Of a stretch of DNA of 64,000 bases, positions 8,711-54,330 are shown piece after piece. This DNA comes from Dipteronia dyeriana (taxonomy: Eukaryota > Streptophyta > Magnoliopsida > Sapindales > Sapindaceae), in the NCBI GenBank assembly GCA_032871835.1, contig CM065302.1, positions 2,355,094 to 2,419,093 on the forward strand. Direction: 5' to 3'. The notes below the pieces were generated by a model that was not told the origin of the DNA, searched no databases, and saw only the letters and a program-made list of their open reading frames with translations. How positions within the stretch are numbered: the first letter of the stretch is position 1; each line of letters starts with the position of its first letter. Made by a program: the position numbers and the translations under genes.

Positions 8711-10048
8711 TGACTCACTCCAAAGTGGGCGCTCGCAAGTGTACGAGGCCGGAGTGTGGTACAATAATAAATAAAGTTTGTTCCCACGGTGATTGAGGAG
8801 TTGATTACTGAAATTGATCGATTTAACTACTATTTGAACAATGATTTAGAAAATGTGATTTTTATGACTCTAGCTATTATAATTTACCACTAAGCAAGTT
8901 TTATCTAAAAATTAGAAAATGAATTCATTAAGAGCTTGGTACACAAACAAGGTTCTATATACTAGCCTTGCATATCTCTACCTTACTAGTCATATATAGA
9001 GAACATTTTATCAAACACGTGAAGTGTGTCACCCCTCGGTTCATAACACGCAACAATAAATCAATCACAAGTTAATCTATCTCATGAAAGCATTAAGCAC
9101 TCAAAAATATCCATACAAGATACTAGCATACATGGGCAAAATAAAAAGTCTATATCATTAAATTAGAGGATTTGGTTTCATCCAGCCTTAGCAAAGGACA
9201 ATTAGTTCATACTATAAATTAGAGCCATATACAACATATATGAAATTAAAGACATGGCTCTACACAATGATAAAAGATAAAGAGATTAGAGAAGACTATC
9301 TTGGGAGCCTTCTCTAGTGTTCATTCTTCTTCTCCTTCAAGCACTCTTCAGCTTCCTTTTTTGCTCCAGAATATGAAATGAAGATGGATGTGTGTAGTGG
9401 GTATTGTAGATGTTTGGATATTTAGGGAAAGTTGGTGGCTTGGTTGATTCTCTTCAAAGTTGGTTTTGTGATGTAATGGTAGTTCCAAAGATGAGTTTTT
9501 TTCTAGATTTCTGGTTCACCCCCCATCCCTTTTTAGGTCTCAAAATAGTAATGTTATATATATGGGAAAGAATTAGGTATGGGGCAAAAAGAGTATTTCC
9601 TTGAATTTGTAGCTTTTCTGGGATAAGGAGGGACCATAGAGCGACTTGAGATATGGTCGCCCTGAGGTCGCTATTGCGCCTGGTGCAGGGGTCCAAAACA
9701 GAGAAGATTGCGACTTCATAGCGACTAAGAGAGTGGTCGCCCTAGGGTCGCTTTTGTCTCTAGTTGGGAAGTCTTGAGCCGAGAAGATTGCGACCTCCAG
9801 GCGATAAATACTGAGGTCGCCCTGGGGTCTCTTTTGCCTCTGGTTGGGAAGTCTTGAGCCGAGAAAATTGTGACCTCCAGGCGATAAATACTGAGGTCCC
9901 CCAGGGGTCGCTTCTGCGTCTGGTTGGCCATATGTACATCTTTCACTTCCCATTTAGTTCTATCTAACACTTTTGGGTCTCAAAACCAAACTAAACATGC
10001 ACGCTTGTAAAAAGTGTTAAAAACTCAGTTTTACCCGAGGAACGAACA
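8711..10048 (-). repeat. 5' LTR of Athila element A
   Basis: On the plus strand it opens with TGACTCACTCC beside the primer site and closes with CGAACA. On the sense strand it therefore starts TG and ends CA. The sense start, TGTTCGTTCCTCGGGTAAAA, resembles the start of LTR D at 25899. Length is about 1.34 kb, usual for Athila. A weak TATA-like run lies near 9553-9563 (minus), with a tandem GCGAC-rich array immediately upstream. Confidence 0.8.
9625..9930. repeat. GCGAC-rich tandem repeat inside LTR A
   Basis: About four imperfect units of roughly 80 bp. Each contains a GCGAC...GTCGCCC...GGTCGC core followed by a CTGGTTGGGAAGTCTTGAG-like tail. The clearest unit starts are near 9705, 9782 and 9862. 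The array sits upstream of the putative LTR promoter. Confidence 0.75.
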
Positions 10049-15196: not shown

Positions 15197-15600
15197 CTTT
15201 CATTTTTTTGTTTTTGTTACGTTTAGAAAATATTTAAATCTCTGCACAAACCGATCAATTTTGAATTATTTTTTTTATAAATAATGTCCAATTTTGTTGA
15301 GTTGTTTTTCTTTATGTGCCGGTAGAGACATATCATGTACGCTTTTAGCTCCATGCATCACTTTAAATATGCTTGTACAGTGTCAATCTTTTGATGTTGT
15401 CGTGGATTAGACCTCTATTCTTGTTTAGCTTTAAAAAATTGTGGAGACTACCTGATTAACACTGAAATGTGTATGTTTATTAAGGGATAATATCATTATT
15501 TTACACTTCCAATATGATTAATTCCCCAATTTAGACATAATTTCGTTCGTTCGCTTAAATAAATGTGTTATGTAGTAATCAATATATTTTTCTTAGTATT
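15197..15600. other. Unassigned stretch between element C and the plus-strand B-type LTR
   Basis: AT-rich, with no coding frame or recognised motif. It is probably the 3' part of element C or the start of the next LTR, but no boundary is visible. Confidence 0.35.
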
Positions 15601-15726
15601 TCAGAGCTAATTCGATCAGTTCAGAATCATGGAGAAGTCAGATGGCAAAACAAACATCGTTTTCAAGTTTAGAACGTCAAAAAACCTTAAGAAAACCACG
15701 AAGGGTATTTTTCGTAATTTTGAGTA

Positions 15727-15965
15727 TTCACTGTTCACAGTTGACTTTCACTGTTTACTGTTTACTGTTTACTGTTACTGTTCACTGTTCACCGTTCACT
15801 GTTCACTGTTGACTTTCACTGTTCACTGTTGACTTTTCACTGTTCACAGTGACTTTTACTGTTTGCAGTTGACTTTTACTGTTCACTCTCGGATGCGTTA
15901 CTGTTCACTCTCGGATGCATTACTGTTCACTCATGGATGGGTTACTGTTCACTGTCACTGTTCAC
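15727..15965. repeat. ACTGTTC short tandem array
   Basis: Dense degenerate repetition of TTCACTG, ACTGTTTACTG and GTTGACTTT words over 240 bp. It ends about 70 bp before a strong TATA box. The array position matches the GCGAC arrays of the other LTRs. Confidence 0.8.
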
Positions 15966-16034
15966 TGATGACGTGGCGAAATCTGGACTCTCCATTCTAA
16001 ATTCATCCGATGGTCAATTTTCATCCGTATTTTG

Positions 16035-16043
16035 TATAAATAG
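16035..16043 (+). promoter_or_regulatory. TATA box of the plus-strand B-type LTR
   Basis: TATAAATAG followed by a G-run and pyrimidine-rich leader. It lies about 70 bp downstream of the ACTGTTC array and some 680 bp before the LTR end, a plausible U3/R border. Confidence 0.65.
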
Positions 16044-16733
16044 GGGGCCTCTCCCCCCTAATTTTGATGTTCTGAATCTAAATCTGATATTAGATTTATG
16101 AAATTCTCTCTCTTTTGTTTTCAAATTCTCAATTTAAATAAAATAGTTATTTTCTAGTTAAATTATGTCTAGTTAATTTTATATAGCTGGGGCCAAAGGT
16201 GATACTGTTGGTATGGAAACTATGATCCAATTTGGGTAAGTTTATTATTTTTATGCTTTCTCCCCACTGATCTTTGTGGATTTTTTGACTCACTGTAGAT
16301 AGACAGATATTGTCTAGCACAGTGAGTACTTTTACCCATATCTATCAGAGAGGTTTATCTCCTCTAATATTTATGGAGTTTTTGACTCACTATAGACAGA
16401 TAGACATTGTCTGGCACAGTGAGTATTTTTACCCACATCTATTAGAGAGTGGTCAGTGGAATGGAATACCATCCCATTAATCTGGACAAAATATTAATTA
16501 TTGGATCATATTCGAATTACCAACAGCGGATCCCTTAGCCCCAGTATTAATTTTAATTGATTTTCATTTTATAACATGCTTAGTAATTAATCTAGATAAT
16601 TAATTCTACAAGGAAAAGTGAACAACCTCCCTGTGGTTCGACCCGGTCTTACCGGTTAATTTATTACTATGACACTCTTATACTTGAGAGTAGGAACACT
16701 TCTTTAGGACGTATCAAGTTTTTCACCCCCCAC

Positions 16734-17949
16734 AACCAGCTTATTGCTAGTCCCTAACAATTAAAGCAAAAATAGTAAAAACTCAAATTCAAATCTCTAA
16801 ACTACCAAATAGACAAACTCTCTCAAACCTCTTTTCTCACCCTTTGACAACCAGTCATCGTTGAGTTATCAATCAAACTTTATTGTGCTCAATAAAGATC
16901 AACACGATAACTATGAGATTCAATTGAAATCAAACAACATTTTCATTCCGAAATCTCACCAGGGCTTTTTCCTTAGGTAGCAGTTTTATTCTTTTTTTTT
17001 AATACAACAAAATTCGAAACAAACATTCCATCTTTAATCCATGTAGCGAGCTTTAGGCCAATGACTCCCAAACCAGTTGGCTTTAGGGCATTAAGTGTTA
17101 AAACACTCATACGAGCTTAATTACTCGGATTGCAGATGTTTTTTTTTTAGTACAATTCCCTTAAGCTTTCTCTTTAACCCGTGTAACGAGCTTTGGGTCA
17201 ATGACTCCCAAACCAGTTGGTCTTAGGGCATTAGGTGTTAAAGCACCCCTCGGACTTAATTGCTCGAGTTAAAGAGGCTATGGAACTGCACTTTATTCTT
17301 AGCCAGACTCCATCATTTTACGCGAACACTCTATGCTTACTGAGGCATGAGGCCCGGCTACTAAGTAAGAATTTTGGTCACAACACACAAAATTATTATT
17401 ATTATTATTATTATTATATAAATTTTTAAACAAGACCACTACCTTTAGTTGTTACCCTTGAATGATGTTTCAGAACTCAATATCGTAAAATCTCAACTTA
17501 CTGCACATAATCACGTGTCAATGTGCGTGTGTGTCTAGACTAGTTCGAAAAATTTCTCAAAATGACTTGATGAACAAAAGGATTAGTCAATGATATCACA
17601 ATGGAGAGTTTATAAATTTGAATAGTCAGAAGAGAGGAAAAAAAATGCATCAGAACTACAAAGATGCATCTCAGAAGTATATAAAAGATCCCCTTACTCG
17701 ACCATATTTACAAAACAATATGGTCAAAAGTTGTTTTTTTTTTTTGAAAAACAAAAGTTATTGAACCAACTATCCCCTCCCCCGAACCAGAATGAGACAT
17801 TGTCCCCAATATCTTTAGAAAGAGTTAAGGTTTATAAGACATCACCTGAACAACTTGAAAGACAACAAAATCCTGCAAAACAACAAAAGAAATACAAAAT
17901 AAAGGAAAATAAAATGCATAAAAACCATGGGACAATCACAAACTAAGAT
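16734..17949 (-). other. 3' untranslated part of element B
   Basis: Non-coding. Two diverged copies of an ~85-bp unit (AACGAGCTTTGGGTCAATG, TCCCAAACCAGTTGG, GGGCATTAGGTGTTAAA) start near 17041 and 17179. The GGGGACAATGT motif is at 17797-17810 (minus), and an (ATT)n run lies at 17391-17415. The polypurine tract, GTGGGGGGTG on the minus strand, is at 16724-16733. Confidence 0.6.
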
Positions 17950-18588
17950 TCAGATCAATTCTGCGTTTCTTGTTCTCTTCATCAGTGACCAATCAAATTT
18001 GGAGGTTGAAGGATCTGGCACATAATTGAAACCTTGTAACTGGTCAATCAGCTCATGAGGACTTGAAGCAGATATAAAGATTTTTCGGATTGAAGGTGGA
18101 ATATAATAATTTTTCTGAGCATGATCAAGAAATGAAAGCAAACCATCATAAAATTTATTAACATTCAACAAACTGATGGGTTTCTCATGGATGTGTAGTT
18201 GCGCCCAGAATGCCATTGTAAAAATTTCTTCTAAGGTTCCAAAACCACCTGGCAAAGCTATAAACGCATCAGCATGATGTAACATAGCAGTCAATCTTTC
18301 AGGCATACCTGAAACAACTAGCTCTTCGTCATTTGTCTTTCCAATGATGTCTGTTGCGGCCATAGGTTTTTGGACAATACCCAGAACTTGACTACCTCCG
18401 TCTCGTGCAGCTCGTGAAACACACCCCATTAATCCCAAGTTACCTCCTCCATACACTAGGTGTATTTTTCGCTCAGCCAAAACCTTACCAAGATGAGTTG
18501 CATCATCAACAAACTCTCTGTATTTCCCATAATTGGTGCCACCAAACACACAAATGTTTGTGAATCGTTTAGTTGAAGGTGACGCCAT
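17950..18588 (-). CDS. LOG-like cytokinin riboside 5'-monophosphate phosphoribohydrolase
   Basis: LOG enzymes release active cytokinin bases from cytokinin nucleotides in the cytosol and nucleus. This 212-codon frame is uninterrupted, close to the family length of about 215. Visible motifs are ICVFGGTNYGKY near the start, HLVYGGGNLGLMG (nucleotide-binding turn), SGMPERLTAML (the conserved Arg kept, but the usual MHxRK reads MPERL) and ALPGGFGTLEE, the PGGxGTxxE signature. The start at 18588 aligns with the family; an upstream in-frame Met at 18687 adds an unlikely hydrophobic extension. Family genes have several introns and this has none, so it is probably a retrocopy carried by element B. 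Its own TATA box lies 70 bp upstream. The MPERL variant suggests a divergent LOG10-like subgroup (inference). Confidence 0.85.
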   Translation of the reverse strand: MASPSTKRFTNICVFGGTNYGKYREFVDDATHLGKVLAERKIHLVYGGGNLGLMGCVSRAARDGGSQVLGIVQKPMAATDIIGKTNDEELVVSGMPERLTAMLHHADAFIALPGGFGTLEEIFTMAFWAQLHIHEKPISLLNVNKFYDGLLSFLDHAQKNYYIPPSIRKIFISASSPHELIDQLQGFNYVPDPSTSKFDWSLMKRTRNAELI

Positions 18589-18657
18589 TAATGCACTATC
18601 TAAATTTTTCTTTTGAATGTTTATGAGTACTTGAAGCAAAAAAGAAAACAAATACTT

Positions 18658-18666
18658 GTATTTATA
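18658..18666 (-). promoter_or_regulatory. TATA box upstream of the LOG-like gene
   Basis: The minus strand reads GGATCTATAAATACAAG. The box lies 70 bp before the LOG start codon, leaving a leader of about 40 bases (CTTTTTTGCTTCAAG...). This is good plant core-promoter spacing. A processed mRNA copy would not normally carry its own TATA box, so either it arose by chance or the element supplies it. Confidence 0.55.
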
Positions 18667-19029
18667 GATCCTGAAAAGGTAACACAATGATACACCTATA
18701 TGTATAGGGCGGCGTGTTTGTCAATGATAATAGATCCAAATGGTTCAAAAATCAAAAGTAAACAACAATAATTACAAAAGACATTAAATGCGGAAGGAAA
18801 AAGATAATAAAAATAAAAGGATAATTATTGGTAGTTGTGATTGTGGCTCACATCTTCCCCTGGTTTTACGTCCAGAAACGGCTTCAACGCCCTCTATGGG
18901 TCGGGGATATGCTTCCCATCCAATTTTCGTATAAATTGGCAAACAGGGTCTTTTTAAGTCAGATTCCCATGACTATATTGTGCATATTCTTTTTGAAATT
19001 GTGGCTATAATCGGTCAATTTCCATTTGC

Positions 19030-19744: not shown

Positions 19745-20875
19745 TTATCCATTTACTTTAAACACATTACCATTCCTAGGATTCTCAATTTCAAGGGCAC
19801 CATATGGATACACGTGTTTCACAACAAATGGACCACTCCATTTCGATTTCAATTTACTAGGAAATAAATGAAGTCGAGAATTATAAAGCAAAACCTTTTG
19901 ACCAACTTCAAATGATCTTCTTAAAATTCGTCTGTCATGAAAGGTTTTAGATTTTTCTCTAAGAATTTTTGCATTTTCATATGCATCATTTCTTAATTCT
20001 TCAAGTTCATTTAATTGCAACTTGCGCAATTCGCCAGCATCATTTAGGTTAGAATTGAAAGCTTTAATGGCCCAATATGTTTTTTTCTCAAGTTCAACAG
20101 GTAAGTGGCTAGGTTTTCCATAAACTAAACGATAAGGAGACATACCCAAAGATGTTTGGAATGCAGTGCGGTAAGCCCAAATTGCATCATTTAGTCTAAG
20201 AGACCAATCTTTTCGATCAGGGTTAACCATTTTTTGTAAGATATGTTTTATCTCCCTATTTGCTAACTCAACTTGACCACTTGTTTGAGAGTGATATGGT
20301 GTGGCAATTTTGTGTGTGACTCCATATTTCTTCATTAAAGACTCAAAAGGTTTGTTACAAAAGTGTTTGCCTCCATCACTGATAATGGCTCGAGGGATTC
20401 CAAATCGACTCAAAAGATTTTCCCTTAAAAACTTAATCACTGTTTTGTGATCATTATTTCGACAATGAATTGCCTCAACCCATTTTGACACATAATCAAC
20501 GGCAACTAAAATGTACAAAAATTCAACTAAAATGTATAAAAATCCAAATGACGGTGGAAATGGACCCATAATATCAATTCCCCAACAATCAAATATTTCA
20601 ATGACAAGAATGGGGTTTAAAGGCATCATGTTTCACATGAAAATGGATCCTAACTTTTGGCATTTTTCATAGGTTTTACAGAATGCATGTGCATCTTCAA
20701 ACAAGATAGGCCAATAAAATCTACACTGCAAGATTTTTACAGCCGTTTTCTTTGACGAAAAATGACCACCACATGCTTCAGAATGACAAAATTCAATGAC
20801 ACTACTTACCTCATTGCCTGGGATACACCGTCGAACAATTTGATCGGGACAATACTTGAATAAGTACGGGGTCAT
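19745..20875 (-). pseudogene. Integrase of Athila element B, nearly intact core
   Basis: The catalytic core is open for 294 codons (20629-19745). It has Asp in [10 protein letters not shown], Asp in IISDGGKHF and Glu in [12 protein letters not shown], the DDE triad. The C-terminal part carries [21 protein letters not shown] short in-frame duplication ([13 protein letters not shown]) lies between core residues 30 and 45. The zinc-binding N-terminus (20875-20633) has HSEACGGHF...KTYEKCQKLG, with Tyr where the first Cys of the CxxC pair is usual. It is split from the core by one stop at about 20630. Confidence 0.85.
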
Positions 20876-21485
20876 CCCAGTAAAAACGTTTGACCTCGGT
20901 CAAAAATTTCTTTATGTTCTGTGCATTCCAATCGAGTGGCATCATTCCTGTAGCAAGATAATTAACAATGTCAGCATACCAAGGAAAAGTTGTGATAGAG
21001 AGTAAAAGATTATCAGGAAAAGAATCATTGATGGGTGTTTTTTCTTCTGACTCGTCATCTTTCCGTTCCAATTCTTCAAAATCTAAAGTGTCTCTTTCTT
21101 TTTCTGCAACCTGCAAACAATTATCAAGATATGAATGTGAGCTTGACTCAGGTGAATTGATCAAACAAATTTTAGATGAGTTAAAAGAATCTTTTTGAAC
21201 ATGATCTTCAACAATGGTTTCAATGATGTCTACATCTATATCTTCATTTTCATCATCAAATGGTTCATTAGACATGTTGAAAACATTAAGCTTAAATTTC
21301 ATATTTCCAAAAGACATGCTCATTATTCCATTCCTGCAATTAATCAAGACATTAGCAGTAGCCAAAAATGATCGGCCCAATATAATAGGAATTGAATTGT
21401 GCTCATTAACAATAGGTTGTGTTTCCAAGATAATAAAATCTATTGGGTAGATAAATTTATCGACTTGTACTAACGCATCTTCCAC
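20811..21485 (-). pseudogene. Protease C-terminus fused in frame to the RNase H tail, element B
   Basis: A 224-codon frame that begins within a retropepsin-like domain (FIILETQPIV, IILGRSFLATANVLI). It passes an acidic linker and then reads DNLLLSITTFPWYADIVNYL and WNAQNIKKFLTEVKRFYWDD, which in Athila elements lies after RNase H and before integrase. The whole RT and most or all of RNase H are missing, with no frameshift at the join, which lies somewhere in the acidic linker (about 21120-21030). The protease active-site region lies upstream (21486-21900) in broken sequence. Confidence 0.78.
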
Positions 21486-21909
21486 TATTCCTTTTGGTAT
21501 TTTAATTGACCTATCAACAAGACAAAGTGTGGTTGAAGTCGGTAAATTGCTGATAAAATGAGTATGGGAGCAAATTTACACTAGCACCTAGGTTAAGTAA
21601 AGCATGCTCAATTTTACAGTTACCAATTGTGCAGGAAATAGTGGGACAGCCAGGATCTTTATATTTCAAAACATTTTTATTGGAAAGAATGGAATTACCT
21701 GTTCAGCCATAAAGGCTTTCTTTCTTACCTGATGCTTCCATTTCACAGTGTACAGATCCTTCAAAAATTTGGCATAAGAAGGTACCTGTTTGATTGCGTT
21801 CAACAAAGGGATATTGATCTTTACCTGTTTGAATATTTCAAAAATCTCTGGGGAATGCTTCGATTTCTGTGAATTTTTAAGAGCTTGAGGATATGGGAGT
21901 GTATGTGGG

Positions 21910-23543
21910 GATTCAATTATTTATTTGTCAACGGTGGTTTAATCAACCCCTTCTTTACCCTTAGAAAGTGACTCATCATCATTTTTACCAGATTCAAGAA
22001 TAGGTTTTTCGATGACCTTACCACTACGAAGAGTGATAATTGATTTGACTTGATCTGGGTGTTGGTTATTATCATAGGAACTTGACTGACTCTTGGGATT
22101 TGGTTGTGGTTGAGATGGAAACTTACCTTTTTTGTGTGTGGTGAGTATAGAAGCAATCTTTACCAAAGTATCTTTAACATCTGTCAAGGTTTGTGCAGTT
22201 TGACTGTTAATGGATTCTTGCTTCTCAATGAATGAGTGCAAAGTGTCTTCAAGGTTTTTCCTAGATGGTGGGACATAAGGCGTATAACCTTGAGGGTTTT
22301 AGAAATTCTGGTGTGTTTGTGGATGTGATAGACCCGGTGGTTATGAAGACTGGGCTTGATTGTTGTTCCTCCAACTAAAGTTTGGGTGATTTCTCCAACC
22401 AAGATTGTAGGTTTGTGAATATGGGTTGGAATTTGGCTTGTTGAAAATGTGCAAAACATTGGCTTGTTCATGAAGGCAATCTTTTATGACCGGTAAAGTT
22501 AGGCAACTATGAGTGAAATGATCATCAGAACCACATACATGGCATGCAATTTCTTATACAGGTTTTACATGTTCACTCTTTTTAGTTTCTAAAGCTTCAA
22601 CTTTCCTAGCTAGGGATACGAATCTAGCTTGAAGGTCATGATCTTCCCTAAGATTGTAAATGCCTCCACTAGATGGAGATGGTTGTGGTTTGCTTATGGA
22701 CTCATAAGAACCAATGGTGTCCCAATTTTGAGCACTTTCGGCGATATGGTCAAGGTATTCAAGTGCTTCTTCAGAATTTTTGTCACTGAACTCCCCATTA
22801 CACATCATTTCAATGATTTGTCTACCTTGGGGTGTGAGTTCCTCATAGAAATGTGACACTATCCTTCATGTTTCAAAACCATGATGTGGACAGACATTTA
22901 ACAACTCTTTGAACCTATCCCAACATTGGTAAAGTGTTTCCCCAGGTTTTGGGGCAAATGAAGTGATTTGCCTCTTAAGAGAGTTTGTTCTATAAGGTGG
23001 GGAAAATTTCTTTAAGAACTGTTGTTGCATATCATTCCAAGTTTGGATTGATCCTGACCTAAGGTTTTGTAACCAAGTTTTAGCTTTATCTTTTAAGGAA
23101 AAAGGGAAAAACTTAAGCTTGATTATATCTATGCTAACATTTTGGTCAGTGCAAGTGTTACAGACTTCCTCAAACTCTCTAAGATGCAAATATGGATTTT
23201 CAGATTCAAGACCGTGAAAATTGGGTAAAAGTTGAATGATTCCTAGTTTAAAATTAAAGTGTGTTGCATTTGGTGGGAAAGCTATGCATGAAGGTGCTCT
23301 AGTACGTGTGAGATTCATGTAGTCTCTAAGAGTTCTATGTGGATTTGGGTTAATGTGTTGGTCATGGTCAACATAAGACGGATGGTTGCTGTGTTGAGAC
23401 ACGTTGTCAAGGTTGTCTAAAAGGTTTTCGGCTTGGTTTCCTGTTGGATGTCTATATGGGTTTTCAGCTATGTTGTTAGTGAATGTGTGTGATTGTGATC
23501 TCCTAATTAATCTACCACTAGATGTTCGAGACCAACGTCTCAT
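21910..23543 (-). pseudogene. gag of Athila element B, broken
   Basis: Starts MRRWSRTSSGRLIRRSQSHT at 23543. The Retrotrans_gag region includes LKFFPFSLKDKAKTWLQNLR, QFLKKFSPPYRTNSLKRQI and LYQCWDRFKELLNVCPHHGF. A stop at 22866-22868 replaces an expected Trp, after which the same frame continues to 22554. A zinc knuckle CHVCGSDDHFTHSC (CX2CX4HX4C) follows near 22545-22500. Further downstream are SIITLRSGKVIEKP and several more stops. Gag is therefore truncated, though its wording is well preserved. Confidence 0.83.
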
Positions 23544-23994
23544 ACAAATTTAATGAGGGTTCATGGAGTTGAAATACACACAAATGAAGAAAATAAAAGA
23601 AAAAGTGATAAAAATAACAAGATGCAAAATTCTAGGGGTATAAATGCAAATATGTACAAGTATTTGGGTAAAAGTGCAAATAATTAAAAATAAAGGGACT
23701 AAAGTGAAAATATGATAATTACAGTGACTGATATGCAAAAATGAAAAATAAAATGACCTATATGCAAATGCAAACTAGATCTAAGCTAAAATGCAAATAA
23801 AAAGTACAATGACTAAAATGCAAAAATGTGATTAAAGATAACAAGTTTTTTTTTTAAAGGGATGAAGTTTATGATTGAGATGAGTGTTGCAAAATTAAAT
23901 ACAAAATAAAAATAAAGAAGATAGAAAAAAAATAGCAAAACTAAAATAAAATTAAAAAAAGAAATTACTACTACAAAGAAAATGCGGACTTACC

Positions 23995-24012
23995 TCCCCG
24001 GCAGCGGAACCA
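23995..24012 (-). other. Primer binding site of element B (tRNA-Asp type)
   Basis: The sense strand reads TGGTTCCGCTGCCGGGGA, separated from the LTR end by the usual AGTTTTT-like spacer. Confidence 0.82.
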
Positions 24013-24018
24013 AAAACT

Positions 24019-24691
24019 TGACACGTCCTAAAGAAGTGTTCATACTCTCAAGTATAAGAGTGTCATAGTAATAAATTAACCGATAAGACCGGGTCGAACC
24101 ACAGGGAGGTTGTTCACTTGTCCTTGTAGAATTAATTATCTAGATTAATTACTAAGCTTATAAAATGAAAATCAATTAAAATTAACACTGGGGCTAAGAG
24201 ATCCACTGTTGGTATTTCGAATATGATCAAATAATTAATATTTAGTCCAGATTAATGGGATGGTATTCCACTACACTGACCACTCTCTAATAGATGTGGG
24301 TAAAAGTACTCACTGTGCCTGACAATATCTGTCTATCTACAGTGAGTCAAAAACTCCACAAAAATTAGAGGGGATAAACCACTCTCTGATAGATATGGGT
24401 AAAAGTACACACTGTACTAGACAATATCTTTGTATTTCCATGCACATACATAACGACATCAGACAACCCTATTGTCTTGCCTTTTTACCATACACATGTA
24501 TCCAATGCACGTACTATATATATATATATATATATATTAGAATAAAACTGCTCATGCAGTTATACAAGTTGGTACATGGGCTTTGCATGTATTGGGCTAG
24601 GTTGCTTGGGCTTTGCATATATGTCATGGGCTTGGGTTTGGTCCACTTGGGTGTATAATGGGTCTCCAACCCATACCCAAATATATCAACA
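24019..24691 (-). repeat. 5' LTR of Athila element B
   Basis: The sense strand starts TGTTGATATATTTGGGTATG at 24691 and ends CTTTAGGACGTGTCA at 24019, 673 bp with TG...CA ends. The last ~415 bp match the inverted LTR at 16301-16716. The first ~260 bp, which include an (AT)n run at 24517-24538, have no match there. Confidence 0.75.
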
Positions 24692-30150: not shown

Positions 30151-31881
30151 ATGGACGTTGTGACGAGGAAATTGATGAAAGATACGGTCTCTGTAGTTCG
30201 AAAAGAGGTAATATACTAATATAGTAATATGAGCTTTTTTGGCTTGTGTTTTTGTCGGTTTGATTATCAGAGTGTTAATTTTATAAATTTGTGACTTCAT
30301 ACTCCACAATCATTAATCATTTTTAGGTACGAGCGGAGATGAAACGAGAGATGAAAGGTGCCCTGAATCGTGTGTGGGAACGAGTGTGGGAACGTATGAA
30401 ACCAGTGATGGAAGAAGAGACAAAAAAAGAGATGAAACGAACAATGAAATCAGGGATGAGAGTGTGGAAACAAGAGATGGAACGTCTGGCGATGGAGCCG
30501 GTGAAGATGCAACCAGCTAATGAACGAGCGAAGAAAAAACGAGCAATGGAATCAACCTTCAGTACACAGGATGTACCACCTGAACGGAACTTCAATCAGA
30601 GGTTAGTTGCATTGATTCTTTTGTTTCCTAAAAATTTCATCTGTATTATCAATTATGGCAGTAGCTGTCTGATTTTGGTTTTCTTGTTGATTTTGTTGTA
30701 GAACCTCACTTGATCATCAGATTAAGAAATCAGAACAAGTAGAATTCCAATTGCAGTTCATTAATAACAAATTACCAGATGAGATTTATACCAATGACGA
30801 GATAAAACATGACAGTGATGGATCTGTTGAAATTAAATTAATTGATACTATCAGTAGGGAGACGGTAGAATTGGATCCTCATTCTTCGATAGTGATAGAG
30901 ATTGTTGTTCTTGATGGTGATTTTGATTCCGACGGCCATGAAAACTGGACTGAAGAGCAATTCAATGCCAAAATTTTAACTAAACGGCAATTGGTGAATG
31001 GTACTGTAAGGCTATTGGTGAAAGGGAAGCAGCATATTACGTTGACAGATGGAGTTGGTACCATCCAGGAGTTACGGTTCATTGAAAATTCTAGCTGGTT
31101 ACTACCATGTAAAAAGTACAGGCTAGGAGCAAGAGTTTTACAAAGCAACAGTAATAGGGGTCAAGTGAGAATCAAGGAAGCAATAACCGAACCTTTTCGA
31201 GTGTTGGACTATCGTGGAAGAAGTAAGTTTAAAAGCTTTACTCCATTGATCTATATGTTCTTATCAATTAAAAGATGTTAATTAGATTTAGATATATGTT
31301 CCTTTAACTGCTTTATAAATTAATATGTTTGTTTCTGTATCATAATATTGTCTTTGACATATTCTTTTAGAGTACAAGAAACACTATCTTCCATCATTGG
31401 ACGATGAAGTATGGCATTTGAAGAGGATAAGAAAAGATTGTAAATTTCATATACGGTTGATAGATAACAATATTCATACAATCAGGGACTTCAAGCAGGC
31501 GTACAAAACCAATGCCGGTGAACTAAAAGAGGTAATTAAGGACGACCATGATGATGCTTTATCTTGTTCTTGTTTGATGAGTATTAATTATACATGTCGA
31601 TGAATAATCCATCTTAAATTTCTGGACTGCAGATACTAAAAGATTGCTCAGAATCGAATTGGGAAAAGATTGTAAAACATGCTGATAGTGTTGTAGATGA
31701 TGAAAAGCTAAATGCTTCCTCTCAAGGGAAACACGACTTTCGTTTCGAAAATCTCCCTGGACAGAATTCATCTCAAGGATCTAGTGAACTCCCTTTGTTT
31801 CCAATGACAGTCTTCTCAACTCAACCCTGGACGGCACCCACATATTTCCAGCGTACAAGACCCGAATGCTTTGGAAGCTGA
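30151..31881 (+). CDS. CBP60-like calmodulin-binding protein, copy 1 (C-terminally short)
   Basis: Exons 30151-30207, 30327-30601, 30702-31222, 31371-31531 and 31633-31881 join in frame with GT-AG borders and give 420 residues. The start MDVVTRKLMKDTVSVVRKE is followed by a Met/Lys/Arg/Glu-rich stretch. The family domain follows: LQFINNKLPDEIY, FIENSSWLLPCKKYRLGARV and FRVLDYRGR, then YLPSLDDEVWHLKRI. CBP60 proteins are plant transcription regulators that bind calmodulin; members such as CBP60g and SARD1 drive salicylate synthesis. The last ~25 codons appear out of frame: another frame reads HISSVQDPNALEADPNPDVE, so the end is probably frameshifted. The usual long C-terminus is missing. Expression and function are unproven. 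Confidence 0.75.
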
Positions 31882-31905
31882 CCCAAACCCTGATGTAGAA
31901 CAAGT

Positions 31906-32534
31906 AGGTGATTCTTATAAGGCTTTAAGGGACTGTCCTAAATTCAATGCTAAGTGACTTCACCTTAAGTGAATTGGCGAGATCTTTTCAAGTCATCGCA
32001 ATTGGCGGTGTGACACATCCTTTTTCGGTCAAATTTCATCGTTTAGACCCTGTAATTATTGTTTTGCCATTTTAGGAAAGTTTCGTTTTAGTCATAAGTT
32101 GAGTTTGACAAGTTAGAATCGTCTGCCGTCAATTCTGGTTTGGTTATGGTAGTTAGTAGTATTTATTTATGCAATTATCTCAATTTTGCTATTTTTAATA
32201 GTTTTTGTTAATTAACCCCGTTTATTGTTCAATAAGGATTAGGATTAGGGTTAGAGTTTATTAGCTTTAAATAAAGTTGTAAGAAAGGCTCATTATCATA
32301 TTATTCAATAAAAAATCAGAATTCGTTTTTAAAGAGTTTTCTCTTGTTTTTGGAGGATTCCAGATTATTACGGGATACACACATTGATCTTATTCCTTTT
32401 ATATTTTCCGTTACATCAGTAGCTCACTCATATGACAGTCCAGCACCAGGTCTACCGCATTCTCAGTACACAAATCCTAACCAAGGTATACAAATTCTAC
32501 CATACATATATATATATAAAAGAAAGTCCAAGAT
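31906..32534 (+). other. Stretch between CBP60 copy 1 and the MULE; possible CBP60 exon remnant
   Basis: Mostly non-coding and unrecognised. At 32415-32490 the plus strand reads AHSYDSPAPGLPHSQYTNPN, a low-complexity Ser/Pro/Gln/Asn wording like a CBP60 C-terminal half. It ends at AACCAAG/GTATAC, a possible splice donor. A short GGATTAGGGTTAG run at 32238 looks telomere-like but is not an array. Confidence 0.35.
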
Positions 32535-32929: not shown

Positions 32930-33640
32930 TAAAGATGAATCGAGTTTTTGTTTAGTTTGAAAAAAGCTCCATAATTTGAAAAAAAATGCTCGATCCCTTA
33001 GGAAAAGTTCTCGATAATTTGACAAATAATCTCGATCCCTTAAAAGAATTCTCGATCCCTTAAAAAATTTATGGAACCCTTAGAAATAGTTCTCGGTACA
33101 TTAGAAAAAGTTCTCGGTCCTTTAAAAATATTCTCAATCCCTTAAAAAAAGTTCTCGTTCTCTTGTTAAAAGTTCTCGATCCCTTAGAAAAAGTTCTCGA
33201 TCCCTTGTTAAAAGGTCTCGATCCCTTGTTAAAAGCTCTCCATTCTTTGATAAAAGTTCTCGATCTCTTTAAAAAGTTCTAGAACCTTTAGAAATGTTCT
33301 CGATCCCTTAGAACAAGTTCTCGTTCCCATGTTAAAAGTTATCGATCCCTTGATAAAAGTTATCGATCCCTTTAAAAAGTTCTCGAACCGTTAGAAATGT
33401 CATCGATCCCTTAGAAAAAGTTCACGTTCCCTTGTAAAAAGTTCTCGTTCCCTTGTTAAAAGTTCTCGAACCATTATAAAAAGTTTTCGATAATTTGAAA
33501 AATATTCTCGATAAAAGTTCTCGAATCGAACCTTTTTAAAAGTTCTCGATCATTTGTAAATTATTCTCGAACCCTTGAAAAAGTTCTCGATCCATTTTAA
33601 ATTTTTGTAACTGTTAGTAATTGTTAGTAATTGTAAATGT
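32930..33640. repeat. Minisatellite, ~20-21 bp unit, left end of the MULE
   Basis: About thirty or more degenerate units of the type TTCTCGATCCCTTAGAAAAAG. It lies between the left terminal repeat and the transposase start. A TTTTCACAG acceptor-like sequence follows at 33680-33688, directly before GACAATGGATCG, so the array may sit in a 5' leader intron. Confidence 0.9.
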
Positions 33641-33691: not shown

Positions 33692-36360
33692 ATGGATCGG
33701 GTTAGATTAGTAATATCTTACAATGGTCGATGGGAGCAATTACCTTATGGAAGTCAGAGGTTTCTTGGTTTCGATAACCAAGGAATGTATGTGTCCAGAA
33801 ATATTATTTACGAAGAGCTGGTGTCGATCGTACAAACCATTGTGAAGTACGATGTGAACAAATACATTGCTGATCTACAATCTATATCAATCGTTCCCGG
33901 GACAACATGTCGCACATTTATAAGAAATGATGACAATGTTTTGTTTATGCTAGGGGAAGATAGGGTAATCCCTCAAGTATGTGTCAGTTTAATTGAGAGG
34001 GCTGCAAGAGTTGTCATCGGTGAAGAAATGCCTCCTTATGATAACACCCAATAATTTCTATCTTCAGGCGGAAGCAACCAGTTGTTCACAGAAAGAAGTG
34101 AGATTGACGGTAGGGAAAACCTATGTGGTGTCCCACCGGAAGTAGCCGACCATGGTGATATAGTTGGAGCTCAATTGGACGATGATTTCGGTTGTCAAAT
34201 TGAAATGAACGTTGGGCAGTACAACCACCAATACAATGAGATGTACAATGAGCGGAACAATGAACCTCATAACTTACCAATCCATGAGGTGGCTAATGAG
34301 GCAAATTTGTAAATACCGAATAAGGAAGAAGATGAAGAACCATTCGAAACGGAAAGATGTGCAAGACGTGAACACAGATATAGTTCCACTGCAGTAGATA
34401 TAGCTGGGACATCTGAGGTCTGACTTGATGTAACTCCAGGTGATTCTGATAATGCTAGAACGTGGGTTATTCCAGAAGCAGAATCATACTCGTTTGGTAT
34501 GGGTGGAAGCAGAAACTTGGTAGAAGATGAACCTACCGGCATGATATATAAAGGTCGATTTTTTCCTACTAAAAAGGATTTGAAGAGATTGACTGGCCAT
34601 TTTGCAATGCGGCACAACTTCGAGTGGAAGGTGAAAAGGTAGAATAAAACAACATTACATCTCGTTTGTTTGATGGACAACTGTATATGGAAGTTAAGAG
34701 CGGTTATGAGAGATGAAGCGATATACTTTCAAGTACGAAGTTTTATCAACGAACACACTTGTCCGTTGGAGAAGATTCATCACCGCCATCGTCAAGCTAG
34801 TGCAGTCATAATTGGAGAAGTGGTTGCACCTAGATTGCAGCAACAGAATGGTCGACTAATGCGTCCGAAGGACATAATCACCGACATGAAAACAATGTAT
34901 GGCATCCAAATAATGTACAGTAAGGCACATCAAGCCCTTGATTACGCATTGTCACTTACCTATGGAACGCATGAGGAAAGCTTCCAACTGCTATCATCAT
35001 TCGGTTACGTGTTGGAACAACAAAATCCCGAAACGATTACTGACTTACAGTGCGATGAAAATGGTAAATTCCTATACTTTTTCATGTCATTAGGTGCCTC
35101 ACTCAGAGGATTCCAGAGGTGTATGCGTTCAGTTATTACCGTTGATGGTACCTATTTAAAGGGTAGATTTGGGGGAACAATGTTTGTTACAACTGCACAA
35201 GATGGGAATGAACAGGTTTATCTAATTGCTTTTAGGTACGGTGACTCGAAAAACAACCTATCATGGGAGTGGTTTTTGGATTGCTTGAAAGGTGCCCTTG
35301 GCCATATAGATGATTTGGTTTTAATTTTTGATCGACATGCAAGCATTGAAGTAGGGATTTCTAAAATGATCCCTTATGCTACTCATACCATATGTTGTTG
35401 GCACTTTTATAAAAATATTAAGAAAAGATATCATAGAAAGGATGTGGCCGCAATAATGGATAAAGCAGCCCGAGCGTACACCGAGTTGCAATATAACCGG
35501 CACATGGAAGAGTTACGCAACTTGCACCCGAATGCATATGAATATGTAATTGATGCCGGTCCACACAAGTGGTCCCGTGTTCACTGCCCCGATAAAAGGT
35601 ATAGGGTGATGACAACAAATGTTGCAGAATACATTAATACATGCCTTAAATTTGCACGACAACTGCCTATGTTGACATTTACAGAGTTTATTAGGAATAT
35701 GCTACAGCGTTGATTTCACGATCGTCATAGGGCTGTACAATCCATGCATCATCAGTTGACCGACGCAACACATATTGTGATCCTGAAACGTGTTGAAAAG
35801 TACAATTTTATGGCCGTTAATCCTGTTGACTGGAATATATTTTCGGTGAAACGGGCTGGAAAACAGTGGACCGTTGACTTAGCCCAGAAGACCTGCATAT
35901 GTAACAAATTCCAAATGGACCATCTTCCATGTTCTCACGCTCTCACTGCTGCAAGGTACATCTTACAATTTTGTGTACGGTTAATATTACTTTAACATCA
36001 TACAATTTTATCATCGTTTTCAATGTTTGTACAGGGACCGAAACATGGATTTCACATCCCTCTGTGCGGACTACTATAAGCGATAAACACTTATTGATGC
36101 GTACTCAGTTCCTATTATGCCGGTTGGACATCCTTCCACTTGGATTTTGCCATCTGACAAAGCTGAGAGAGTCATTTTGAATCCAAGCTCCAGGAGACAA
36201 GCAGGCAGGCCGAGGGCTTCACGTCGTATCTCGTCTTCAGGTAGAACATCCTCACAGAACTGCAGACAATGTCGACAACCAAGGCATAATTCGAGGAGAT
36301 GTTCTAACCCAGCTTTTACTGATAAAGATCCGAGCAGAGTCATTCCTGAGGATACAGACG
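33692..36360 (+). pseudogene. MURA-type (MuDR family) transposase, broken
   Basis: A single reading frame runs from MDRVRLVISYNGRW at 33692 to 35955, then an 80-bp GT-AG intron (35956-36034) and a last exon to about 36360. Domains in order: a PB1-like N-terminus; the MuDR DNA-binding region (YKGRFFPTKKDLKRLTGHFA, FINEHTCPLE); the MULE catalytic domain with ITVDGTYLKGRFGGT (first Asp) and LVLIFDRHASIEVGI (second Asp); a SWIM zinc finger CICNKFQMDHLPCSH; and in the last exon a knuckle CRQCRQPRHNSRRC. In-frame stops near 34052, 34310, 34422, 34640, 35711 and 36085 kill it, although the frame itself is never shifted. Confidence 0.87.
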
Positions 36361-39600: not shown

Positions 39601-41221
39601 TGAGGTCATCTACCAACCAAAACTGCTATACTGGAATCTTCAATCTCTCGTCCACCCCCATCAGTATCCAGTTCAACATGTAAATGAGGCACAACTTCAC
39701 AGCATCGTACGCCTGTTGAAACTCTCCCTGGGTAAGAACAACCCTCAAGGCATCCAACGATACCTCATCTTGTCCAGGAAAGTACCGTTGATGTATGTCA
39801 TTCTCAACTGCAACATACATACTCGTGTCTGGTACGACTCCAAAACGTAATCCGGTGATGAGGCTAAATTCTACCTTCGAAAACCTCACCACATGGTTCC
39901 CTAACAAGAACCGAATCTCATCTGTCGGCCCGTCATGGTCCAACTCCCGCAACAGCAGCTGATAAATAACACCACCTGAAAACTTCATCTCCCGGTGCAT
40001 CGACATGAAATGCCCGAAATAGAAGGCCATGAACCGACGCCAAGCCTCAACAACAAACTCTTCAGGGACCCAATTAAGTGCATCATTTATACGGGTAAGG
40101 GTTTCAAAATGGTCGTGTCTGGTCAATTTTCCCTTGAACCAATCTCCCTCTGTAGTTTTAAGCAATTCCTTCATGTTGCTCTTCATCTGCAATGTCACAG
40201 AAACAGTACATCAGTAAACTGCACAAAAACTAAAAAATATTCTCGATCGTTTGAAACCAATTCTCGATACTTTTAAAATATTCTTGATCCTTTGAAAAAG
40301 TTCTCAATTTGTCTAAAAAGTTCTCGATCCTTTGCAAATAGGCTCGATCCTTTGAAATTAGTCTCGATCCTTTGTAAAACCTCTCGATTAATTGAAAAAT
40401 ATTCTCGATCATTTGAAAAAGTTCTCGACCCTTTGAAAAACATTCTCGATCGTTATAAAACTATTATTGATTCTTTGAAAATACTCTCGATCCTTTGAAA
40501 AACCTCTCGATTCTTTGAAAATGTTATCGATAAATTTAAAAAATCTCGACCCTTTGAAAATATTATTGAACCTTTGAAAATAGTCTCAATCCTTTGAAAA
40601 ACCTCTCGATCCTTTGAAAAATCTTCTCGGTCATTTTATAAAATCTGAACCCTTTGAAAAATATTTTCGATTGTTTGAAAACATTCTCAATCCTTTGAAA
40701 ATAGTCTCGACACTTTGACAAACATCTCGATTCTTTGAAAAATATTCTCGATTAGATGATAAATCTTTTCGATTCGATCATTTAAAAAAATCTCGATCAT
40801 TTGAAAAACATTCTCGATCGTTATCAAAATTTTCTCGATCCTTTCAAAATAGTCTGGATCCTTTGAAAAACCTTTCGATTCTTTGAAAAATATTCTCGAT
40901 CATTTAACAAAAGCTCGATCACTTTGAAAAACATTCTCGATCACTTTCAAAAACCTCTCGAATCTTTCTAAAAAATTTCCTCAATCTCGCTTGAAATATT
41001 CTCGATTTATTTCTATTTAAAAACAAAAATTCCTCGATACCAGAACATTCAACCTCATTTCAAACCCAAACCCAAACCCAAACCAAAACCAAAACCACAA
41101 CCAGTCTCAACCCTAATCTACAATTTCAATCAACAGAACAACTCTAATATGCAATAATAAGTTATGAACAACATATCGATAAATAAAACAAACTGAACTT
41201 ACCTCTGTCATCACTGCGAAA
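36676..41221 (-). pseudogene. ULP-like (DUF1985 plus C48 peptidase) gene of the MULE, broken
   Basis: A plausible first coding exon is only MTE (41221-41213), followed by a GTAAGT donor and a 1.0-kb intron holding a minisatellite. Exon 2 (40186-39434) starts MKSNMKELLKTTEGDWFKGK and contains the DUF1985 segment FSKVEFSLITGLRFGVVPDT. Stops lie at 39626-39628 and 39524-39526. The next exon starts near 39349, with another stop. A proline-rich hinge is encoded at 38500-38056. The C48 peptidase part shows HMDAYLHILRKHQRAFPNVY, then RQHWLLVTVDLTYWKMLIVD (His and Asp of the triad) and GNYGPHTLRFIEY, where the catalytic Cys is expected but Tyr is read. The end is at 36676. ULP enzymes process SUMO; this copy should be inactive. 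Confidence 0.72.
40235..41010. repeat. Minisatellite, ~20 bp unit, right end of the MULE, in the ULP first intron
   Basis: Around 35-40 units of the type TTCTCGATCCTTTGAAAAA. The core TCTCGATCC is shared with the left array and points the same way on the plus strand, so relative to the element ends the two arrays are direct, not inverted. Confidence 0.9.
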
Positions 41222-52731: not shown

Positions 52732-54330
52732 ATGGACATTATGCTGAGGAAATTGATGAAAGATACGGTCTCTGTAGTTCGAAAAGAGGTAATATACTAA
52801 TATAGTAATATGAGCTTTTTTGGCTTGTGTTTTTGTCGGTTTGATTATCAGAGTGTTAATTTTATAAATTTGTGACTTCATACTCCACAATCATTAATTG
52901 ACAATGGAGCCGGTGAAGATGAAACCGGCTAATGAACGAGTGAAGAAGAAACGAGCAATGAAATCAACATTCAGTACACAGGATGCGCAACCTGAACGGA
53001 ACGTCAATCAGAGGTTAGTTGCATTGATTCTTTCGTTTCCTGAAAATTTCATCTATATTATCAATTATGGCAGTAGCTGTCTGATTTTGGTTTTCTTGTT
53101 GATTTTGTTGTAGAACCTCACTTGATCTTCAGATTAAGAATTCAGAACAAGTAGCATTGCAGTTGCAGTTCATTAATAACAAATTACCAGATAAGATTTA
53201 TAAGAATGATGAGATAAAAGATGACAGTGATGGATCTGTTGAAATTAAATTAATAAGTATTACCAGCGGGGAGACAATAGAACAAGGTCCTCTTTCTTCT
53301 ATGAAGATACAGATTGTTGTTCTTGATGGTGATTTTGGTCTCGGCGACTATGAAAACTGGACTGAAGAGGAATTCAAGGACAAAATTTTAACTAAAAGGC
53401 AATTGTTGAATGGCACTGTGAGGCTATTGGTGAAAGGGAAGTAGCAGATTACGTTGACAGATGGAGTTGGTACCATCCAGGACTTACGTTTCATTGAAAA
53501 TTCTAGCCGGAGACCACCATGTAAAAAGTACAGACTAGGAGCAACAGTTTTACAAAGCAACAGTAATAGGGGTCACGTGAGAATCAAGGAAGCAATAACC
53601 AAACCTTTTCGAGTGTTGGACTATAGTGGAAGAAGTAAGATTAAAAGCTTGACTCCTTTGATCTATATGTTCTTATCAATTAAAAGATGTTAATTAGATT
53701 TAGATATATGTTCCTTTAACTGCTTTATAAATTAATATGTTTGTGTTATGTATCATACTATTGTCTTTGACATATTCATTTAGAGTACAAGAAACACGAT
53801 CTTCCATCATTGGACAATGAAGTATGGCATTTGAAGAGGATAAAACAAGATCGTAAATTTCATATGCGGTTGATAAATAACAATATTCATACAATCAGGG
53901 ACTTCAAGCAGATGTACAAAACCAATCCCGTCAAACTAAAAGAGGTAATTAAGGACGACCATGATGATGTTTTATCATGTTCTTGTTTGATGAGTATTAA
54001 TTATACATGTCGATGAATAATCTATCTTAAATTTCTGGACCACAGATACTTAAAGATTGTTCATAATTAATTGGGAAAAAATTATAAAACATGCTGATAG
54101 TGTTGTAGATGATGAGAAGCTAAATGCTTCCTCTCAAGGGAAAATTGACTTTTGTTTCGAAAATCTCCCAGGACAGATTTCATCTTAAGGATCGAGTGAA
54201 CTCCCTTTGTTTCCAATGACAGTCTTCTCAACTCAACCCTGTACCTCACCCACATATCTCCGATGTTCAAGACCCGAATGCTTTAGAAGCCGACTCAAAC
54301 CCCGATGTAAAACAAGTAGCTAAATAATCA
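52732..54330 (+). pseudogene. CBP60-like gene, copy 2, broken
   Basis: Exon 1 (52732-52788, MDIMLRKLMKDTVSVVRKE) is intact. The acceptor and the first ~150 bp of exon 2 are deleted, so intron 1 runs directly into MEPVKMKPANERVKKK (52904). The exon 3 equivalent has a TAG at 53443-53445 after LLVKGK, and exon 5 a TAA soon after ILKDCS. The remaining wording follows copy 1 closely (FRVLDYSGR, LPSLDNEVWHLKRI). The late-exon frameshift of copy 1 is shared. Confidence 0.85.

Follow-up and report, generated by a model that had tools for sequence, protein, structure and literature searches.

A decayed copy of a LOG-derived gene in an Athila-like LTR retrotransposon family of Dipteronia dyeriana, and its putatively remodelled relatives in other eudicots

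The stretch of Dipteronia dyeriana DNA analysed here (64 kb, positions 2,355,094 to 2,419,093 of contig CM065302.1; hereafter the window) carries on its minus strand a reading frame of 212 codons that runs from an ATG at 18588 to a TGA at 17950. An earlier note, drawn up from the letters alone, had described it as an intact, intron-less gene of the LOG (cytokinin-activating) type, lodged where Athila elements carry their extra ORF, in an element that is itself broken. The length of the frame, the lack of introns, the position and the signature PGGxGTxxE, which here reads PGGFGTLEE, were all borne out. The ORF matches PF03641 (Pfam profile search, E=2.3e-36) and TIGR00730 (E=7.6e-46), in both cases above the curated cut-off. 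Its closest solved structure is that of Arabidopsis At2g37210 (E=7.3e-53), the catalytic residues Arg99 and Glu122 (CgLOG numbers) are both kept, and the predicted structure has the LOG fold and matches AtLOG3, at middling confidence (pLDDT 72.4). With the NCBIfam LOG equivalog model the ORF reaches a score of 106.7, below the cut-off of 300, which is possibly strict for plant proteins. Because the same frame recurs in many copies in the genome, a chance ORF is excluded. What did not stand is the word intact: the C-terminus reads ...KRTRNAELI, as in one other copy (L009), and the tail characteristic of the family has been lost through a frame difference. Overall, the observation made in the earlier note is partly confirmed and its interpretation partly supported.

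The features of the surrounding element are collected in Table 1. Gag and integrase lie upstream of the LOG-like ORF in the same sense. In the element family the LTRs are about 1.3 kb long, begin with TGTGATTAACAC and finish with TTTAGGACGTGTCA; the 5' LTR is followed by the primer binding site (PBS), and a purine tract stands directly before the 3' LTR. The PBS, TGGCGCCGCTGCCGGGGA, agrees in 17 of 18 letters with what we take to be the 3' end of plant tRNA-Asp. The Athila-type features (LTR, PBS, purine tract, gag-pol, and integrase after RT-RNase H) are present in sister copies; the window copy itself has no RT-RNase H and has an inverted 3' LTR. The ORF had been placed between integrase and a GGGGACAATGT/polypurine end. 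Its position between integrase and the 3' LTR holds. GGGGACAATGT lies about 140 nt past the stop codon, but the LTR of sister copies begins farther on, some 1.2 kb beyond the ORF, and is preceded by a GGTTGGGGGG tract of its own. Nor does every neighbouring element frame contain stops, as had been claimed: the integrase frame is open over 295 codons, and so are further element frames, 103-254 codons in length.

Table 1. Features of the element surrounding the LOG-like ORF (letters of the 64-kb window)
Feature	Position	Strand	Remarks
LTR on 3' side	15453..16723	+	orientation opposite to that of the 3' LTR in the sister copies compared
Purine tract adjoining 3' LTR position	16726..16737	-	
LOG-like ORF	17950..18588	-	212 codons + stop; C-terminal end frame-shifted relative to sister copies
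Upstream stretch with TATAAATA and possible splice acceptor TTTTCAG	18589..18700	-	neither above background conservation
Integrase ORF (rve)	19745..20632	-	PF00665, E=7e-16; 295 codons
Pol fragment upstream of integrase	20811..21575	-	protease by eye, no Pfam match; holds RT-RNase H deletion junction
RT-RNase H deletion junction, approximate	21035..21045	-	short microhomology; identical in 12/17 copies
Gag ORF fragment	22866..23549	-	PF03732, E=1e-17
Primer binding site, mutated in the window	23995..24012	-	tRNA-Asp-like; followed by GAG|GTAAGT, possible splice donor
5' LTR remnant, expected orientation	24019..24435	-	

The two LTRs of the window are mutually inverted, and at the 3' junction the purine tract runs into an LTR end in reverse together with the PBS spacer, an arrangement that resembles an inversion or a self-integration-like event. 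Elsewhere in the window, a 1.4-kb direct repeat (30492-31907 and 52904-54319; 91% identical, 22 kb apart) may represent LTRs or a duplicated segment. Two tandem arrays (32981-33512 and 40234-40952) are built from related units of ~20 bp, AAAAAGTTCTCGATCCCTTAG and AAAATATTCTCGATCCTTTG, and a 356-codon frame at 34643-35713 resembles, by eye, a transposase of the MULE type.

Candidate expression signals of the LOG-like gene are conserved to varying degrees. The TATA box said to stand upstream is indeed present, its 8-mer TATAAATA being exact in 28 of 32 copies, but this conservation is not exceptional, since 97 of the 393 8-mers found there are conserved equally well or better. An internal promoter based on the TATA box finds no support beyond background conservation. 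A spliced subgenomic mRNA may exist: its possible donor is kept in 12 of 14 copies, but its possible acceptor in only 20 of 32, and conservation sets neither apart.

A protein search of the 914-Mb D. dyeriana genome returned 1074 first-look candidates, of which 150 were scored. All 150 match at E<=6.2e-114 and, the window's own copy excluded, with 85-93% identity. Gene capture as a single event at this locus is not compatible with so many close copies in the genome and with the relatives found in other eudicots; a one-off capture is ruled out. The copies studied number 52 (from 63 loci, 11 of which repeated a place); they were chosen by LOG protein score and, in 20 cases, for the absence of stops. 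The frame is open through to the tail in 28 of the 52, a share inflated by this selection, and broken within the gene in the other 24. The C-terminus is readable in 30 copies, 28 of which carry the tail, mostly in a form like KKRRIDLNLSL; the exceptions are the window copy and L009.

Twenty copies were fetched together with roughly 6 kb of upstream and 3 kb of downstream sequence. Integrase sequence was found upstream and in the same sense in 16 of them and the start of a 3' LTR downstream in 19, which rules out an ordinary host gene. RT-RNase H, both parts of which were identified in copy L015, is retained in five of 17 testable copies, and one deletion with the same junction accounts for the remaining 12, so that the deletion seen in the window is common to 11 of the 16 other testable copies. 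The window copy is a member of a non-autonomous subfamily that has shed RT-RNase H and must presumably have used the RT of another element. With 12 of 17 testable copies, this non-autonomous subfamily appears to have had a success of its own. In copy L018 the 3' LTR is immediately followed by a further stretch (9435-9965) that matches the sequence downstream of the LOG-like gene, as a tandem or nested insertion would leave. Searches for host LOG exons in this genome, with AtLOG3 pieces and a D. sinensis LOG as queries, recovered no recognisable host exons among the best 150 matches, because element copies fill these lists.

The D. dyeriana copies are not very old, judged by the divergence of their LTRs (K2P; median 0.062, range 0.027-0.072 in 12 copies), the median of which corresponds to about 4 million years at a substitution rate of 7e-9 per site and year. 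Among the 28 intact copies a GY codon model gave an omega of 0.92 (kappa 5.2), which is near neutral. Omegas based on variants, for which the mutation spectrum was taken from noncoding spacer, were 0.83 for single-copy and 0.89 for shared variants in all 52 copies, and 0.86 and 0.79, respectively, in the 28 intact ones. Pooled Nei-Gojobori values were lower (28 intact copies, 0.68; all 52, 0.63; 24 broken, 0.59) and, within the intact copies, the core stood at 0.65 and the final 14 codons at 1.26; we trust them less because the method ignores transition bias. When genes were compared by shared variants, all on small counts, omega was 0.46-0.55 for integrase (16 copies), 0.29 for RT (five copies), 0.69 for gag (17 copies), and 0.42 and 1.22 for two further fragments of the pol region (17 copies each). 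LOG stood at 0.71 (21 copies) and, when read one base off, at 0.82. On these small counts integrase and RT seem to be under tighter constraint than the LOG gene, with one pol fragment standing at 1.22. Sampling by LOG score biases omega downward, not upward. By these values the LOG-like gene, tail included, decays almost freely in this genome, where selection on it is weak or absent. The maintenance proposed for the gene, against which a dN/dS near 1 had been named in advance as evidence, is thus not seen within the genome.

Relatives in other plants were drawn from the best 120 of 6385 and the best 120 of 7815 protein matches. Those listed come from Dipteronia, Xanthoceras and Melia (Sapindales), Populus (Malpighiales), Reevesia and Diplodiscus (Malvales), and Rehmannia and Paulownia (Lamiales). 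A tree of 59 selected proteins separates 49 element-like rows from 10 host LOGs with support of 100/100; its tailed branch comprises 44 rows (99/94), 43 of which group without protein P0083 (99/90). The corresponding values in a tree of 78 rows are 99/93 for a group of 49, 100/94 for 41 and 98/88 for 40. By these trees the relatives from Sapindales, Malvales, Malpighiales and Lamiales are one clade, apart from the host LOGs compared, which were LOG3-like proteins and AtLOG8 only, so that another host LOG subfamily could be nearer. We infer that the relatives in other hosts lie in elements, given their copy number (at least 45 separate Reevesia clusters among the best 120 matches listed) and, for Citrus and Populus, the gypsy elements described in PMC9289625. 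Some relatives are annotated as single genes, LOGL10 of Populus among them; tail-bearing genes annotated as LOG or LOGL10 in Populus and other genomes are probably element genes. Among IMG/VR contigs, three different queries found no relatives.

The tail sets these proteins apart from host LOGs: an LxLxL motif lies within the last 12 residues of 93 of 120 relatives and of none of 120 host LOGs. From 178 pocket-changed, full-length proteins, 38 non-redundant members (<80% identity) were chosen regardless of the tail. LxLxL is present in 34 of them, whereas 2000 shuffles gave 2.6 on average and never more than 8, and a basic cluster (at least three K/R within six residues) precedes the LxLxL position in 36. 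The three leucines are invariant in the 34 members ending in LxLxL and the residues between them vary. In D. dyeriana, 24 of 28 intact copies keep the motif, which is absent from the window copy. In plant repressors, EAR motifs (LxLxL or DLNxxP) recruit TOPLESS-type co-repressors, and the basic run resembles a nuclear entry signal. On the strength of these two likenesses, the protein is probably nuclear and would bring a co-repressor to its targets.

The second departure from host LOGs concerns the nucleotide/prenyl pocket. According to the study of CgLOG (PMC4979012), catalysis is proposed to rest on Arg99 and Glu122, adenine is held by Met96, Lys100 and Glu121, and the prenyl group is proposed to be held by Met96, His97, Lys100, Glu125 and Trp129. 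When the AMP-binding and catalytic residues were changed to alanine, nearly all activity was lost, S19A excepted (PMC4979012). We counted pocket residues in 206 relatives (166 tailed, 40 untailed), with 120 host LOGs as reference, in every one of which R99, E121, E122, W129, K100, E125 and H97 are all found. The tailed relatives largely keep R99 (157), E121 (162), E122 (161) and W129 (162), and keep H97 in 58, K100 in two and E125 in only one. The 38 non-redundant members likewise retain R99 (38), E121 (38), E122 (36) and W129 (38). In the window the positions of H97, K100 and E125 are occupied by P96, L99 and T124. The replacement of MHxRK by MPERL, pointed out early on, is common to the family (Pro in 27 and Leu in 28 of the 28 intact copies), and the suggestion that it marks a divergent subgroup agrees with pocket changes that are family-wide and clade-wide.

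The distribution of pocket and tail across the tree hints at their order. Basal rows of the Xanthoceras type keep all seven residues (nine of nine examined) and are without the LxLxL tail, and P0083, which is basal within the tailed branch, combines the tail with K100 and E125, so that the tail probably preceded the pocket change. P0083 is a single protein, and a possible intermediate between the unchanged pocket and the tailed, pocket-changed state. Among the 40 untailed rows K100 is kept in 13 and changed in 27, many of the latter being cut short or one leucine off. Plain hormone activation, the function first attributed to the gene, is doubtful because K100 and E125 are replaced in almost every tailed relative; judged from the residues, cytokinin activation is probably changed or lost in the tailed protein.

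How, then, is the gene best explained? The tail and pocket suggest that the protein is probably an old accessory protein of the element, remodelled from LOG, nuclear and co-repressor-binding. For the reading as a whole, in which the window holds a decayed accessory-gene copy of an Athila-like LTR family, LOG-derived, with a tail and a changed pocket, and with a nuclear co-repressor role that would serve the element, we see an even chance. The passenger explanation, by which the gene is now functionless and its apparent integrity a matter of youth and sampling, draws on the near-neutral omega among intact copies, the value of 1.26 over the tail codons, the 24 broken copies among 52 sampled and the low LTR divergence. 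It has to contend with the retention of catalytic residues and tail across the 38 members of less than 80% identity and across rosids and asterids, a conservation unlike neutral drift. The passenger explanation may therefore fit the copies of this genome and not the lineage, and as a general account we hold it to be unlikely.

Equally unlikely, in our estimate, is that the element carries a working LOG which raises active cytokinin and so favours dividing or meristem cells for transposition and inheritance. An enzyme of this kind would account for the retention of Arg99 and Glu122 in the tailed proteins, for the match of the predicted fold to AtLOG3, for the whole pocket of the tailless basal branch and for P0083 with both tail and K100/E125. 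Against it stand the near absence of K100 and E125 from tailed proteins, neither being found in the window, compared with their presence in all host LOGs, the near inactivity of the CgLOG alanine mutants (S19A excepted; PMC4979012), and the equivalog score below its possibly strict cut-off. That a tailed host gene family was captured more than once, some annotated proteins being host genes, would explain single-gene annotations such as Populus LOGL10. The Reevesia clusters (at least 45 in the best 120 listed) and the 150 scored copies here look like elements, however, and PMC9289625 reports YgdH/LOG domains from Citrus and P. trichocarpa gypsy consensuses, which makes such a host family improbable.

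We propose the following course of events for the remodelled accessory protein. The element lineage would have acquired a spliced LOG mRNA once, long ago, and the protein would then have gained a tail for nuclear entry and TOPLESS binding (EAR-type), with the prenyl-group pocket altered thereafter. The LOG core, as a nucleotide-binding or nucleotide-cleaving dimer whose site has changed its taste, would serve the element in the nucleus, and the co-repressor may be brought to something the element wants quiet, for example a host stress or cytokinin-response programme. The protein could be made from a spliced or an internally started mRNA. In D. dyeriana most of the testable copies, that of the window included, fall into the non-autonomous subfamily without RT-RNase H, inside which the gene appears to be decaying. 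The further-reaching idea of a rosid and asterid LTR lineage with a nuclear, LOG-derived accessory protein that has a re-tooled pocket and an EAR tail and quiets host transcription is put forward tentatively, as a possibility we would not bet on; if true, such a protein would be the plant analogue of retroviral accessory factors.

To our knowledge, the function of the extra ORFs of plant retrotransposons is mostly not known. The LOG-derived extra ORF brings together a clear parent enzyme, a precise pocket change, a co-repressor-type tail and conservation between rosids and asterids, and with one protein the role of such ORFs for the element becomes directly testable. There is also a warning for annotation: some of the LOGL10-like genes listed as cytokinin-activating in tree genomes probably belong to elements and may not encode cytokinin enzymes, and tailed LOG or LOGL10 entries are a likely source of wrong hormone-gene counts.

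LOG-type domains in gypsy elements of Citrus and Populus are already in print. In PMC9289625, YgdH/LOG domains were found in Ty3/gypsy consensuses of Citrus sinensis and C. clementina and, with a looser filter, of Populus trichocarpa, and Steinbauerova et al. 2011 are credited with YgdH/LOG domains in gypsy elements. Extra ORFs were counted only from 250 codons up in PMC6317226, so that ORFs of 217 codons would be missed there. Searches of open-access full texts turned up neither the tail nor the pocket change, and neither the RT-less subfamily nor the wide spread. The Citrus and Populus elements resemble ours in having a LOG-type domain in a plant gypsy LTR element, in Sapindales and Malpighiales; that report, in the part consulted, gives domain presence only, whereas the present analysis adds tail, pocket, selection, the RT-less subfamily, and Malvales and Lamiales. 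With AtLOG3 (At2g37210) and AtLOG8 (At5g11950) the protein shares the fold, PGGxGTxxE, the catalytic Arg and Glu and a size of ~215 residues. It differs in that the gene is element-borne and without introns, K100 and E125 (often also H97) are changed, and a basic plus LxLxL tail is present. Like the env-like and other sense extra ORFs of Athila elements (PMC7264820, PMC6317226), the ORF lies on the sense strand between integrase and the 3' LTR; unlike them, it has a LOG-derived fold and is neither env-like nor PF03078. The 2-oxoglutarate dioxygenase (m6A demethylase) domain in gypsy elements of Phalaenopsis (PMC9289625) is a further example of a host enzyme domain that was acquired and amplified. 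There the enzyme is a different one and the case is recent and was found in two species, whereas here an old clade combines a remodelled pocket with an added tail.
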